Shown here piece after piece: positions 17,001 through 22,998 of a stretch of DNA of 50,734 nt; the stretch's first letter is position 1; each line of letters begins with the position of its first letter. This stretch comes from Ignavibacteria bacterium. Its GTDB lineage: Bacteria; Bacteroidota; Ignavibacteria; Ignavibacteriales; Ignavibacteriaceae. The notes beneath the pieces were generated by a model. That model saw only the letters and a list, made by a program, of their open reading frames with translations, had not been told where the DNA came from and made no database searches. A program made the translations under genes and the position numbers. Location of the stretch: positions 1 through 50,734 of the forward strand of contig JAJTBZ010000043.1 of assembly GCA_021286645.1 (NCBI GenBank), given 5' to 3'.

Positions 17001-17185
17001 TTAATTCCGATTGGGGTTGGGTAAAACAAGTTCCGAATCAGGCAGACGCTCTGTTGAAGTATCAGGGTATTGACGCTGCTACAAAGAAAATGAAAGTTAG
17101 CTTCACTAATAAAGATAATCCGTTTATTGCGGATAACTTGCTTTCACGCTATCAAATGCAGTTAGGTTTACGCTATAACTTTTAA
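14057..17185 (+). CDS. Oar-like TonB-dependent outer-membrane receptor
   Basis: A 1042-residue outer-membrane protein. A signal peptide (about 1-24, ending TLAQG) is followed by a carboxypeptidase-regulatory-like beta-sandwich (about 32-115; GQVLDKDNSTLPGATV, then DGRYTLQNL), as in Oar and many Bacteroidota receptors. The plug domain (about 125-250) contains SAGGRNSKLNNIQLDGTQYN and ends in GGGINAITRSGTNT. The rest is a long beta-barrel finishing LGLRYNF, with the terminal aromatic residue expected for Bam-dependent insertion. I see no partner SusD gene, so a SusC-type glycan system is unlikely. The substrate is unknown; Oar-type proteins have been linked to export or adhesion as well as uptake. 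It stands alone between two terminator-like hairpins. Confidence 0.88.
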   Translation: MNLKGLLVLLLACMLLSSGITLAQGTATSASIIGQVLDKDNSTLPGATVVAVHKPSGTVFGTTTRLDGRYTLQNLKVGGPYEITYSYVGYNKNVHTIDYLKLSQVFTLNVILTPVSMQMGALTVTGEKSNVLNSGKTGAATDVGKDVIERTPTISRSFQDFSKLSPMFSGQSLSAGGRNSKLNNIQLDGTQYNDMFGLGNSGTPGGQANTNPVSLDAVQEFQVVIAPFDVRQSGFTGGGINAITRSGTNTLEGSAFYYNRNENFMGKSPDAAKKKYDEFSEYQAGFRLGGPIMQNKLFFFVNAELTRRKAPISNLALTNASISETDKAKITALADSVRNILVNKYNYDPGTYAPKNAIRPSYKFFTRFDWNIDDNNHLTVRENYVSANDDILQRNDRVSFDDRMYTFKNTTNSLVAQLTSTFGNNLSNELILGYTTIRDKRTVDNAFPSLRFYSPVVGSDVYAGTEEYSVRNGLDQDVFEFTDNVSFYYGPHIFTVGTHNEFFKFSNLFTRNFYGMYTFNYAKELADAKSAAYSYRYSLTGDPDFAPKFGVRQYGFYAQDEYTPISGLKLTAGVRIDIPTFPDSPSKNDSVTKYFGYMNLSTDKLPSGKVLFSPRFGVNYDVLGNKDLIVRGGVGVFTGKIPYVWISNQYSNTGIEFADISNASGKVQPFNSDPYNQPKSGPNITQGATTEIDITDQDFKMPQLLRYNLGADVKLPFNLTGSVDYLYSKNLNDMMYKDLNIGPANGTLPDGRPTYTGSRIAKYFQRVMLLTNTSDGYQSNFAVQIQGDVLPDLNVNGAYAFGTAKDKNSVLSSQAYSQFRYSPINNDPNNPSLTTANFEIKHRILVSVGYGIDVYKGVHATVSLFYNGQSGRPFSYRYSNDANGDGHDANDLIFVPANKDDYIYVPTDKNDTRTAATIGDQFWAYVNNDDYLKDHKGQIMERNAAREPWVSQFDFRAAVKINTYATQSVELSLDILNVGNLLNSDWGWVKQVPNQADALLKYQGIDAATKKMKVSFTNKDNPFIADNLLSRYQMQLGLRYNF

Positions 17186-17214
17186 GTTATAGTATAACAA
17201 TTCCTGTTTTTTAG

Positions 17215-17242
17215 AGGCTGCCTGAAAATGGCAGCCTTTTTT
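17215..17242 (+). terminator. Intrinsic terminator after the Oar-like receptor
   Basis: AGGCTGCC (17215-17222), a 7-base loop, GGCAGCCT (17230-17237), then six Ts. It is 29 bases after the stop codon. Confidence 0.9.
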
Positions 17243-17330: not shown

Positions 17331-17358
17331 TTGACAATTAAATGTAACTTCCTATATT
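17331..17358 (+). promoter_or_regulatory. Promoter of the trp operon
   Basis: TTGACA (17331-17336), a 16-base spacer and TATATT (17353-17358) make a good sigma-70-type match; the TATATTG part also resembles the Bacteroidota -7 box. Transcription would begin about 17363-17367, which is on or next to the leader peptide ATG at 17366. Confidence 0.65.
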
Positions 17359-17365
17359 GCATTAT

Positions 17366-17455
17366 ATGAAAAAGATCAATGAGACATATTATACCAACAT
17401 AAATCGCCAAAATATTTGGTGGTGGTGGCATATTGCGTATAGTCTGACTCAGTGA
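17366..17455 (+). CDS. trpL: trp operon leader peptide with four consecutive Trp codons
   Basis: A 29-codon reading frame whose residues 18-21 are four consecutive tryptophans (TGG at 17417-17428), ending at TGA (17453-17455). Trp is the rarest residue, so four in a row directly ahead of a terminator and trpE is diagnostic of ribosome-mediated attenuation. When charged tRNA-Trp is scarce, the ribosome stalls on these codons and the downstream terminator is not formed. There is no Shine-Dalgarno sequence before the ATG, and the best promoter puts transcription start within a few bases of it, so translation may begin on a leaderless mRNA. The peptide itself probably has no function after synthesis. 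Confidence 0.93.
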   Translation: MKKINETYYTNINRQNIWWWWHIAYSLTQ

Positions 17456-17516
17456 TTTTGAGATAATATATTTGTATGCGAAAAGCCTTTCTCAGTTCAC
17501 TGGGAAAGGCTTTTTT
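17448..17516 (+). promoter_or_regulatory. trp attenuator: antiterminator and terminator
   Basis: Terminator: AAAAGCCTTTC (17481-17491) pairs with GAAAGGCTTTT (17504-17514), capped by further pairs, with a T-run to 17516. Antiterminator as I pair it: 17448-17455 (CTCAGTGA, which includes the leader stop codon) with 17497-17504 (TCACTGGG), 8 pairs with one wobble, then TGAGA (17459-17463) with TCTCA (17490-17494). The two folds share 17490-17504 and exclude each other. A ribosome reaching the stop codon would cover the antiterminator's 5' arm; one stalled on the Trp codons would not. Confidence 0.8.
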
Positions 17517-17547: not shown

Positions 17548-19023
17548 ATGCAGAAAGAAGAATTTTTAAGACTAGCAGAAAATTATAACCTGATACCCTT
17601 GTACAGCATAATTACGGCAGATATGGTAACTCCCGTATTGGCATATATAAAAATTCGGGAAAAAGGCAAAGCCAGTTTTTTGTATGAATCGGTTGAAGGT
17701 AACGCTCAAATGGCAAGGTTTTCCTTCATAGCCAGAGATCCGGAAGTTTTATTTTTTAGCAACGGCCTAAATCTCAGAATATGTACTGCCGAAAAAGATG
17801 AAGCCTTGGAAGGAGACCTATTTCGGTGTTTGCGGGATGTTTTACAAAAGTATCATCCAGCCCCGTGTCCTGATCTTCCCGATTTCTCCGGGGGGATAGT
17901 TGGGTATATTGGTTATGAGAATATATGTACTATTGAGCCTACCGTAACCAAAGCAGAAAAATCGCTTGGGGGATATGATTCTATTCTTGGTCTGTATAAA
18001 TCAATTGTAGCGTTTGACCATTACCGTCATCAAATCATTTTGATCAATAATGTTTTTATCGAAGAGGGAACAGACCCTGAGGTTGCTTATGATAATGCAC
18101 AGCTAAAAATTCAGGAATTGAAAAAGTTATTACGAAATGGGACAAGTTATCAGGAAAGCTTTGCCATATCCGGTGAAATATCTAACTCAGTGAATGACTC
18201 AGATTTTTTTGATATGGTCGAAAAAGCAAAGCGCCATATCATTGAAGGGGATATTTTTCAAATAGTTTTATCCAAACGCTTCTCCTCATCGTACAAAGGC
18301 GACATTTTTAATGTTTATAGGGCGCTCCGAATAATTAACCCTTCGCCATATATGTACTGCCTCGAATATCCGGGAGAATTTACGATTATTGGCACATCAC
18401 CTGAAGATTTAGTTAAGGTTAAGAATGGAAAAGCGCAATTACTTCCTATTGCGGGGACAAGAGCGCGCGGAAAAAGCGAAGAACAGGACCTGGCTTTGGA
18501 AACGAACCTTCTGGCCGATGAAAAAGAGTTAGCAGAACATACAATGTTGGTTGACCTTGGCAGAAATGATCTCGGACGTGTTTGTCAGTATGGCACTGTG
18601 AAAGTTACCGAGTTAATGAAAATTCAAAGGTATTCTCATGTAATGCACATTGTATCTAAAGTCGAAGGTGTACTGAGGGCAGATAAAGACCTGATTGACA
18701 CATTCCGCTCTTGTTTCCCCGCCGGAACAGTTACAGGCGCACCGAAAATTAGAGCAATGCAGTTAATCAGAGAATTCGAAGGATTTCAAAGAAACGTGTA
18801 TGCGGGGGCGGTAGGATATTTTGACTTTTCAGGCAATATGGATTTCTGTATCGCCATAAGAACCTTATTCGCAAATAAAGACATGTTGCATTGGCAGGCA
18901 GGGGCGGGTATCGTCGCTGACAGCCAGCCGAATCTGGAGTTAAAAGAAATACATAACAAAGCAGCTGCAATGGTGCAAGCTCTTCAATACGCGGAGGTGA
19001 TCGATGAAAATCCTGGTAATTGA
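17548..19023 (+). CDS. trpE: Anthranilate synthase component I
   Basis: A 491-residue chorismate-using enzyme that, with TrpG, makes anthranilate, the first step of tryptophan synthesis. The ATG at 17548 is chosen because the longer frame from 17476 would translate the attenuator stem itself. Seen: an N-terminal region with the LYESVEG element typical of Trp feedback-inhibited TrpE (followed by ARFSFIA), then the chorismate-binding domain with GDIFQIVLSKRF, LPIAGTRARG, DLGRNDLGRV, a CFPAGTVTGAPKIRAM block and QAGAGIVADSQP. Its last 20 bases overlap trpG. Control is expected at two levels: the attenuator upstream and allosteric inhibition by Trp. Confidence 0.95.
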   Translation: MQKEEFLRLAENYNLIPLYSIITADMVTPVLAYIKIREKGKASFLYESVEGNAQMARFSFIARDPEVLFFSNGLNLRICTAEKDEALEGDLFRCLRDVLQKYHPAPCPDLPDFSGGIVGYIGYENICTIEPTVTKAEKSLGGYDSILGLYKSIVAFDHYRHQIILINNVFIEEGTDPEVAYDNAQLKIQELKKLLRNGTSYQESFAISGEISNSVNDSDFFDMVEKAKRHIIEGDIFQIVLSKRFSSSYKGDIFNVYRALRIINPSPYMYCLEYPGEFTIIGTSPEDLVKVKNGKAQLLPIAGTRARGKSEEQDLALETNLLADEKELAEHTMLVDLGRNDLGRVCQYGTVKVTELMKIQRYSHVMHIVSKVEGVLRADKDLIDTFRSCFPAGTVTGAPKIRAMQLIREFEGFQRNVYAGAVGYFDFSGNMDFCIAIRTLFANKDMLHWQAGAGIVADSQPNLELKEIHNKAAAMVQALQYAEVIDENPGN

Positions 19024-21388: not shown

Positions 21389-21983
21389 AATATGTGGAAT
21401 CACAAACTACGTAGACGCAATTTTATGCGAATCTGCAGGTGCTGATGCATTGGGGTTTGTTTTTTATGAAAAAAGTCCACGCTTTATTCATCCTGAAACA
21501 GTTCGTGCAATTACCGCGAAGTTACATCCATTCATCATAAAAGTTGGAGTATTTGTAAACAGTTCTCCGGAATATATCAACGAGGTAGTCCGGATAGCAG
21601 GATTGAACATGGCGCAATTACATGGTGATGAATCACCAGTCATTCTTGAGGCTATTTCAGTCCCGGTTATCAGAGCGTTCAGAATTTCACCCGATTTTAA
21701 CTGGGATATTTTAGACGCGTGGAGAGGATGCAGTTTCTTATTCGATGCATTCAATGCAAAGCAATACGGAGGAACAGGTATAAGCACTCATCATAATTTA
21801 ATTCCACCGGCCAGGTACGGCAATGCCATTTTGGCAGGAGGTATTACGGTTGAAAATATTGGTGAAATAATTGCGCGGAAAGAAAAACCTCTGGCACTCG
21901 ATATATCATCCGGACTTGAATCTTCGCCCGGTAAGAAAGATGCCACGAGAGTACAGAATTTTTATAAAATATTACGAGGATAA
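21378..21983 (+). CDS. trpF: Phosphoribosylanthranilate isomerase
   Basis: A 201-residue (beta/alpha)8 enzyme that isomerises phosphoribosylanthranilate. It begins KTKICGITNYVDA, which holds the catalytic cysteine, followed by GADALGFVFYEKSPR and QLHGDES. The general-acid aspartate is expected in FDAFN, and LAGGITVENI plus LDISSGLESSPGKKD bind phosphate. It overlaps trpC and is followed by aroF after a single base, in the usual place for a free-standing trpF. Confidence 0.95.
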   Translation: MKTKICGITNYVDAILCESAGADALGFVFYEKSPRFIHPETVRAITAKLHPFIIKVGVFVNSSPEYINEVVRIAGLNMAQLHGDESPVILEAISVPVIRAFRISPDFNWDILDAWRGCSFLFDAFNAKQYGGTGISTHHNLIPPARYGNAILAGGITVENIGEIIARKEKPLALDISSGLESSPGKKDATRVQNFYKILRG

Positions 21984-21984
21984 T

Positions 21985-22998
21985 ATGTTAGTATTAATGC
22001 CGTTAAATGCTCCTCGTGAGCATATTGAATCTGTTAAAAGTAAATTACTCGAAAATGACTGTAAACCCCATGAAATTCCCGGTTTGGTTAAATTAGGAAT
22101 TGGTGTAACAGGACCTACAAATAAATTGAGGGTGGAAGACTTTCAGACAATGGATTCTGTGGATGAAGTAGTAAGAGTAACCAAGCCTTTCAAGCTTGTT
22201 AGTCGTGAAATGAAAAAAGAAGATACCACAATACAGGTCGGGTCTCAGTTAATTGGTGGTAAGAAATTAACGATTATCGCCGGGCCCTGCTCTGTTGAAA
22301 GCAAAGATCAGATTTTAGAAATATCTTCAACATTAAAGGAAGTGGGAGTATCGCTCTTGCGTGCCGGAGCTTTTAAACCACGGTCCAGCCCGTACGCATT
22401 TCAAGGTTTAAAAAGTGCAGGATTACAGATTCTTGCCGATGCAAAGAAGGAATTGGGCATGAGTATCGTTACCGAAGTTAAAGATACTGATACCCTTGAC
22501 GAAATCGCTGCGGTCGCTGATATTATTCAAATTGGCGCGCGGAATATGCAGAATTTTTCTCTTCTCGAACGTATTGGCGAGTTACGGCAACCTGTGTTGT
22601 TAAAGAGGGGGCTATCGGCAACAATTGAAGAACTTCTTATGAGTGCTGAATATATCATGTCACAGGGTAATTATCAGGTTATTTTATGTGAAAGAGGCAT
22701 CAGAACTTTTGAAACATATACCAGAAATACACTTGACCTAAATGCCATACCTGTTATCAAGCAATTATCGCACTTGCCGGTTATTGTCGATCCCTCGCAT
22801 GGTATTGGCATAGCTGACAAAGTACCTGCAATGGCACTTGCAGGTGTGGCATGTGGCGGGGATGGAGTTATTGTTGAAGTTCACCCGCACCCGGAATTAG
22901 CTCTTTCAGACGGGTTCCAATCATTAACACCAAAGAATTTTAAAGAAATGATTGGGAAAATTCGGCAATTGGCTCCAATTGTCGGGAAGGAAATATAA
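21985..22998 (+). CDS. aroF: DAHP synthase (type I-beta, with N-terminal ferredoxin-like domain)
   Basis: A 337-residue 3-deoxy-D-arabino-heptulosonate-7-phosphate synthase, the first enzyme of the shikimate pathway. The ATG at 21985, one base after the trpF stop, is chosen over an upstream in-frame start that would overlap trpF by 113 bases. Residues 1-70 form a ferredoxin-like domain ([13 protein letters not shown]), as in Thermotoga DAHP synthase, where it carries feedback control by Tyr or Phe. The catalytic barrel has [43 protein letters not shown] and a VDPSHGIG metal-site motif. Here it is part of the trp operon, so its expression should follow Trp supply. Confidence 0.94.

Follow-up and report, generated by a model that had tools for sequence, protein, structure and literature searches.

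A very probable ribosome-mediated trp attenuator with three competing helices in Ignavibacteria

In Escherichia coli, region II of the trp leader pairs with the 5´ arm of the terminator and not with its loop and 3´ arm. Enterobacterial leaders of this type (trpL, Rfam RF00513; PMC1183508) are characterized by Trp codons, by three helices (1:2, antiterminator and terminator) and by ribosome position as the signal, and the leader described here would have all of them in common with trpL. In E. coli K-12, the leader stop codon precedes region II, lying 10-12 nt beyond the last Trp codon; a stop placed far downstream in region II was predicted to lower basal readthrough (Elf and Ehrenberg, PMC1183508). 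In Sinorhizobium meliloti, the trpL transcript is leaderless and starts at the ATG (PMC7298713). Leader-peptide attenuation in Bacteroidetes has already been suggested for amino-acid operons of Flavobacterium (PMC9723704), and Rfam holds a Bacteroid-trp family (RF01692; Weinberg et al. 2010, PMC2864571). Our search of a literature collection for trp attenuation in Ignavibacteria found no paper.

Locus, promoter and leader ORF

We analysed a stretch of 50,734 nucleotides (the window) from an Ignavibacteria bacterium (GenBank GCA_021286645.1, contig JAJTBZ010000043.1), in which the switch precedes trpE on the + strand; all features described below lie on that strand. The nearest named relatives of its TrpE come from Ignavibacteria metagenome assemblies and share about 60% identity with it. 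The locus begins with a gene ending at 17185 whose product, judged from its sequence, is probably a TonB-receptor-like protein. A terminator-like site belonging to that gene (17213-17239) follows, and then come the promoter, the leader ORF, a 16-bp terminator and trpE (17548-19023), the first gene of the operon trpE-G-D-C-F-aroF-B-A, which runs to 24995. NCBIfam models name the downstream genes trpE, trpG, trpD, trpC, trpF, DAHP synthase, trpB and trpA. TrpE (score 511, curated cut-off 518) and TrpF (190, cut-off 215) are clear relatives that fall just below the equivalog cut-off. The aroF-type DAHP synthase gene (21961-22998) sits between trpF and trpB.

The leader ORF (17366-17455) encodes MKKINETYYTNINRQNIWWWWHIAYSLTQ in 29 codons and ends with a TGA stop at 17453-17455. 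Four consecutive Trp codons, read in this frame, occupy 17417-17428 and form the putative stall site. A short ORF with consecutive Trp codons ahead of trp biosynthetic genes is what one expects of an attenuator, and so is an intrinsic terminator ahead of the first structural gene; for comparison, we gathered leaders with both a Trp run and a terminator from the regions ahead of trpE at 68 loci. Removal of near-duplicates left 65 distinct leaders, 64 of them from the order of the window (Ignavibacteriales-like).

The promoter predicted for the window (17331-17358) consists of TTGACA at 17331 and TATATT at 17353, separated by 16 nt (11 of 12 matches). A -35/-10 pair lies 5´ of the leader ATG in 57 of the 65 leaders, against 6% expected from shuffles. 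Only 7 nt separate the -10 hexamer from the ATG in the window, where no Shine-Dalgarno sequence is present; the median spacing in leaders of relatives is 13 nt, and a Shine-Dalgarno-like motif occurs in none of the 65 leaders. From this spacing and the lack of a Shine-Dalgarno motif, we predict a transcript start 0-9 nt ahead of the ATG, so the leader ORF of the window should be leaderless or nearly so. S. meliloti trpL likewise has a Trp leader and a leaderless start, which for the window is predicted from promoter spacing; it differs in belonging to another lineage and in its 14-aa leader. In two collected loci (L128 and L129), the trp leader lies directly 3´ of a tRNA-Asn gene, has no TTGACA/TATATTTG promoter and may be co-transcribed with the tRNA.

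Three competing helices

The intrinsic terminator (17480-17516) has a 16-bp stem (17480-17495/17500-17515), a TTCA loop and a T tract at 17511-17516, and a terminator was found in 68 of 68 collected leaders. The first-pass annotation had drawn an 11-bp stem (17481-17491/17504-17514) and stated that an antiterminator excludes it. The stem was drawn too short; mutual exclusion stands. With 16 rather than 11 bp, the antiterminator takes up the terminator loop and the apical parts of both arms, namely loop bases 17497-17499 and five bases of each arm (17500-17504 in the 3´ arm, 17490-17494 in the 5´ arm).

The antiterminator itself, which had been paired by eye, consists of two helices with their 5´ halves in segment 2 (17448-17463). 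The outer arm CTCAGTGA (17448-17455) pairs with TCACTGGG (17497-17504), that is, with three loop bases and the apical terminator 3´ arm; the inner arm TGAGA (17459-17463) pairs with TCTCA (17490-17494) within the terminator 5´ arm. All these bases are found where they had been placed, and both helices are part of the minimum-energy fold of 17448-17504 (-16.5 kcal/mol; the two helices exactly as drawn, -14.6). The antiterminator duplex (-18.4) was equalled by one of 5000 dinucleotide shuffles made of the sequence that lies between Trp codons and terminator.

Conservation through compensatory changes had been proposed as a check on this pairing. We counted such changes by parsimony on a TrpE tree (n=68) and in an alignment of 41 sequences, built from sequence and not fitted to structure, so that the counts rest on one alignment and one tree. 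The 8-bp outer helix passed this check well, with 20 independent compensatory double changes against 0-1 when the arms were slid by 1-2 positions; among relatives it passes from CAGTGA/TCACTG to CCGGTG/CACCGG and CAGTAA/TTACTG. For the inner helix the outcome was weaker, 7 events against 2-4 slid. In the alignment, cells changed on both sides number 42 for the antiterminator (9.1 +/- 2.9 in shuffles), and 80% of its positions are paired, against 74.3% shuffled and 35-47% slid. Segment 2 also fits its own terminator better (-15.8) than a terminator swapped between species (-11.2) or a shuffled one (-6.6). The terminator shows 29 compensatory events on the TrpE tree against 0-5 slid, and 10 of its 16 pairs have changes on both sides. 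RNAalifold on the alignment yields the terminator alone, as expected with mutually exclusive structures, and for that reason the helices were counted one by one. The antiterminator is thus both backed by covariation and mutually exclusive with the terminator, a further property expected of an attenuator.

One might argue that only a classical antiterminator, in which segment 2 pairs with the terminator 5´ arm through TGAGA/TCTCA, matters, and that pairing of the stop-codon arm is secondary. The inner helix can indeed form first because its 3´ partner is transcribed earlier, and in L022 and L026 it has six uninterrupted pairs and the outer helix is broken. This reading is nevertheless improbable: compensatory events in the outer helix are about three times as many as in the inner one, the outer helix is paired in 85% of cases against 64%, and several relatives (L025, L012) have no inner helix but an outer one extended into the loop. 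As a conserved part of the switch with both helices, TGAGA/TCTCA appears weakly supported.

The first-pass annotation did not contain a third helix, which competes with the antiterminator. Segment 1, which lies within leader codons 2-11 (17371-17398), can form a helix of -19.5 kcal/mol with segment 2 and the flank upstream of it, a value equalled by 8 of 2000 shuffles. This 1:2 pairing shows 21 compensatory events against 2-7 when shifted, is formed in 61% of cases against 31-34%, and is stronger within species (-15.4) than between swapped partners (-9.8). The same codons encode a peptide motif, T-G/E-T/S-Y-Y, whose conservation at the N terminus might be due to the 1:2 pairing.

A covariance model built for the antiterminator, run on 294 genomes of the class, gives matches of more than 42 bits in the order of the window alone, and these lie at trpE. 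Weak matches outside the order (30-41 bits) were rejected, their best ones lying elsewhere than at trpE, save in genome G155. There, at locus L154 (512-610), in the same class and outside the order, trpE is preceded by a Trp-rich leader and a terminator, and the arm lies farther away.

Stop codon, ribosome position and kinetics

That the 5´ arm contains the leader stop codon is confirmed in the window, the TGA at 17453-17455 lying inside 17448-17455. Among the 65 leaders, 47 have the stop inside the arm, 12 upstream of it and 6 downstream. The stop follows the last Trp codon at a distance of between 12 and 51 nt (SD 7.4), and the distance from that codon to the start of the arm is 20-23 nt (interquartile range; SD 2.7). 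The constant feature is therefore the distance between Trp codons and arm; a stop inside the arm is common, not required. In the 12 leaders with an upstream stop, which resemble E. coli K-12 in this respect, a ribosome at the stop would leave the arm largely exposed, and termination must depend on the 1:2 helix or on a different step. Compensation by stronger 1:2 pairing in these early-stop relatives was considered and found unsupported (-15.2 vs -15.4).

Many leaders of the window's family end with MTQ or TSQ followed by the stop, as they might if the arm were kept for the peptide or the stop context and RNA pairing were a by-product. This is very unlikely, as changes in the arm are matched by the terminator and the arm is retained where it lies wholly outside the ORF (L013, L040, L052, L015, L027, L029, L138).

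Given the usual ribosome footprint, a ribosome at the last Trp codon leaves about 9 nt free before the arm, and at the window's stop it covers the arm completely. Folding under such footprint constraints, the other check that had been proposed, gave an antiterminator probability of 0 at all RNA lengths with a ribosome at the stop, and of 0.99-1.0 with a ribosome stalled at the fourth Trp codon and the RNA exposed to 17504. With the same stall and no pairing to upstream RNA, the probability is still 0.91 at 17510; 1:2 pairing across the stalled ribosome, if possible, would abolish the antiterminator at an exposed end of about 17508. The simple switch by ribosome position suggested earlier is supported, the antiterminator being blocked at the stop and free at the Trp stall, with the qualification that the terminator wins once complete. 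The full terminator is more stable (-24.0 vs -16.5), and the antiterminator wins during emergence of the 3´ arm. Since the terminator prevails at equilibrium in every ribosome state at full length, the decision must be kinetic, as in known attenuators.

The following course of events is proposed. When Trp is scarce, the ribosome would stall at the Trp codons with its front edge at about 17429-17438, some 9-18 nt before segment 2, and would separate segments 1 and 2, one on each side. Segment 2 would then capture TCTCA and TCACTGGG during their emergence from RNA polymerase, allowing transcription to continue into trpE. With ample Trp, a ribosome that has reached the stop would cover about 17438-17465, all of segment 2 included, and the terminator would form. 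After release of the ribosome, or without translation, segment 1 could take segment 2 and leave the terminator free again. We infer that the switch regulates the operon in the cell in response to tryptophan and that 1:2 pairing does not form across the stalled ribosome.

The view that the locus holds a plain intergenic terminator or constitutive hairpin, with chance pairings upstream, agrees with the terminator being the most stable structure at full length and is otherwise hardly credible in the face of compensatory changes in helices outside the terminator, a Trp-run leader at 68 trpE loci and a duplex equalled by a single shuffle in 5000; barring a wrong alignment, the covariation would already refute it. 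Considering the parts, the covariation of all three helices, the conserved spacing and the footprint-constrained folding observed here, the leader very probably controls the trp operon by ribosome-mediated transcription attenuation, with three helices in competition.

Relation to known trp leaders

No Rfam family matches the window at gathering threshold, and relaxed matches such as RsaJ and NrrF look like chance matches to the terminator. For Trp_leader (RF00513) there is no match in the window at gathering threshold or even at E up to 10. Bacteroid-trp scores 21.3 bits in the window, against a gathering threshold of 49, which places the window outside that family; none of the 294 genomes of the class matches it, nor does any of eight other loci at gathering threshold.

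In the 17 Bacteroid-trp members that we read (L168-L184), the leader ORF contains a Trp run and the terminator loop contains TCA, both as in the window. Their arm starts 17-18 nt after the Trp codons; in most members it reads CGTCGTGA, and in most it includes the TGA stop. Its partner, TCACGACA, lies in the loop and the apical 3´ arm of the terminator, which is the topology of the window; a second small helix to the terminator 5´ arm is present as well. The window differs in sequence and in its longer leader ORF.

Other leaders were also noticed. At two loci in Bacteroidetes assemblies (L091, L097), a short leader that reads MQTQHSNTNAWWR, or a close variant of it, lies some 140-86 nt ahead of trpE and may be an attenuator of another type. 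A His leader of the same kind was looked for in the window's genome, where 12 of 28 CAY runs were checked and none was in a short ORF.

We regard the window as a member of a new, well-supported attenuator family; the kind of switch is known, and the architecture is one that Bacteroid-trp also has. More tentatively, and with somewhat less than even confidence, the leaders of the order and Bacteroid-trp might be united in one Bacteroidota class of trp attenuators. Its ORF would be near-leaderless, its stop-codon arm would pair with the terminator loop (a toehold for strand displacement) and 3´ arm rather than with the 5´ arm alone, and the position of its stop in region II would be evolutionarily tuned for basal readthrough. 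The window has the arrangement that Elf and Ehrenberg (PMC1183508) treated as the far-downstream case. Stops ranging from 12 to 51 nt around an arm held mostly at 20-23 nt provide a natural series for testing their prediction. A covarying attenuator family is added for a lineage that had no Rfam match, and its antiterminator topology, with the stop in the arm, recurs in members of Bacteroid-trp, where it is omitted by the Rfam model, which stops at the terminator 5´ arm and whose consensus structure lacks the antiterminator.
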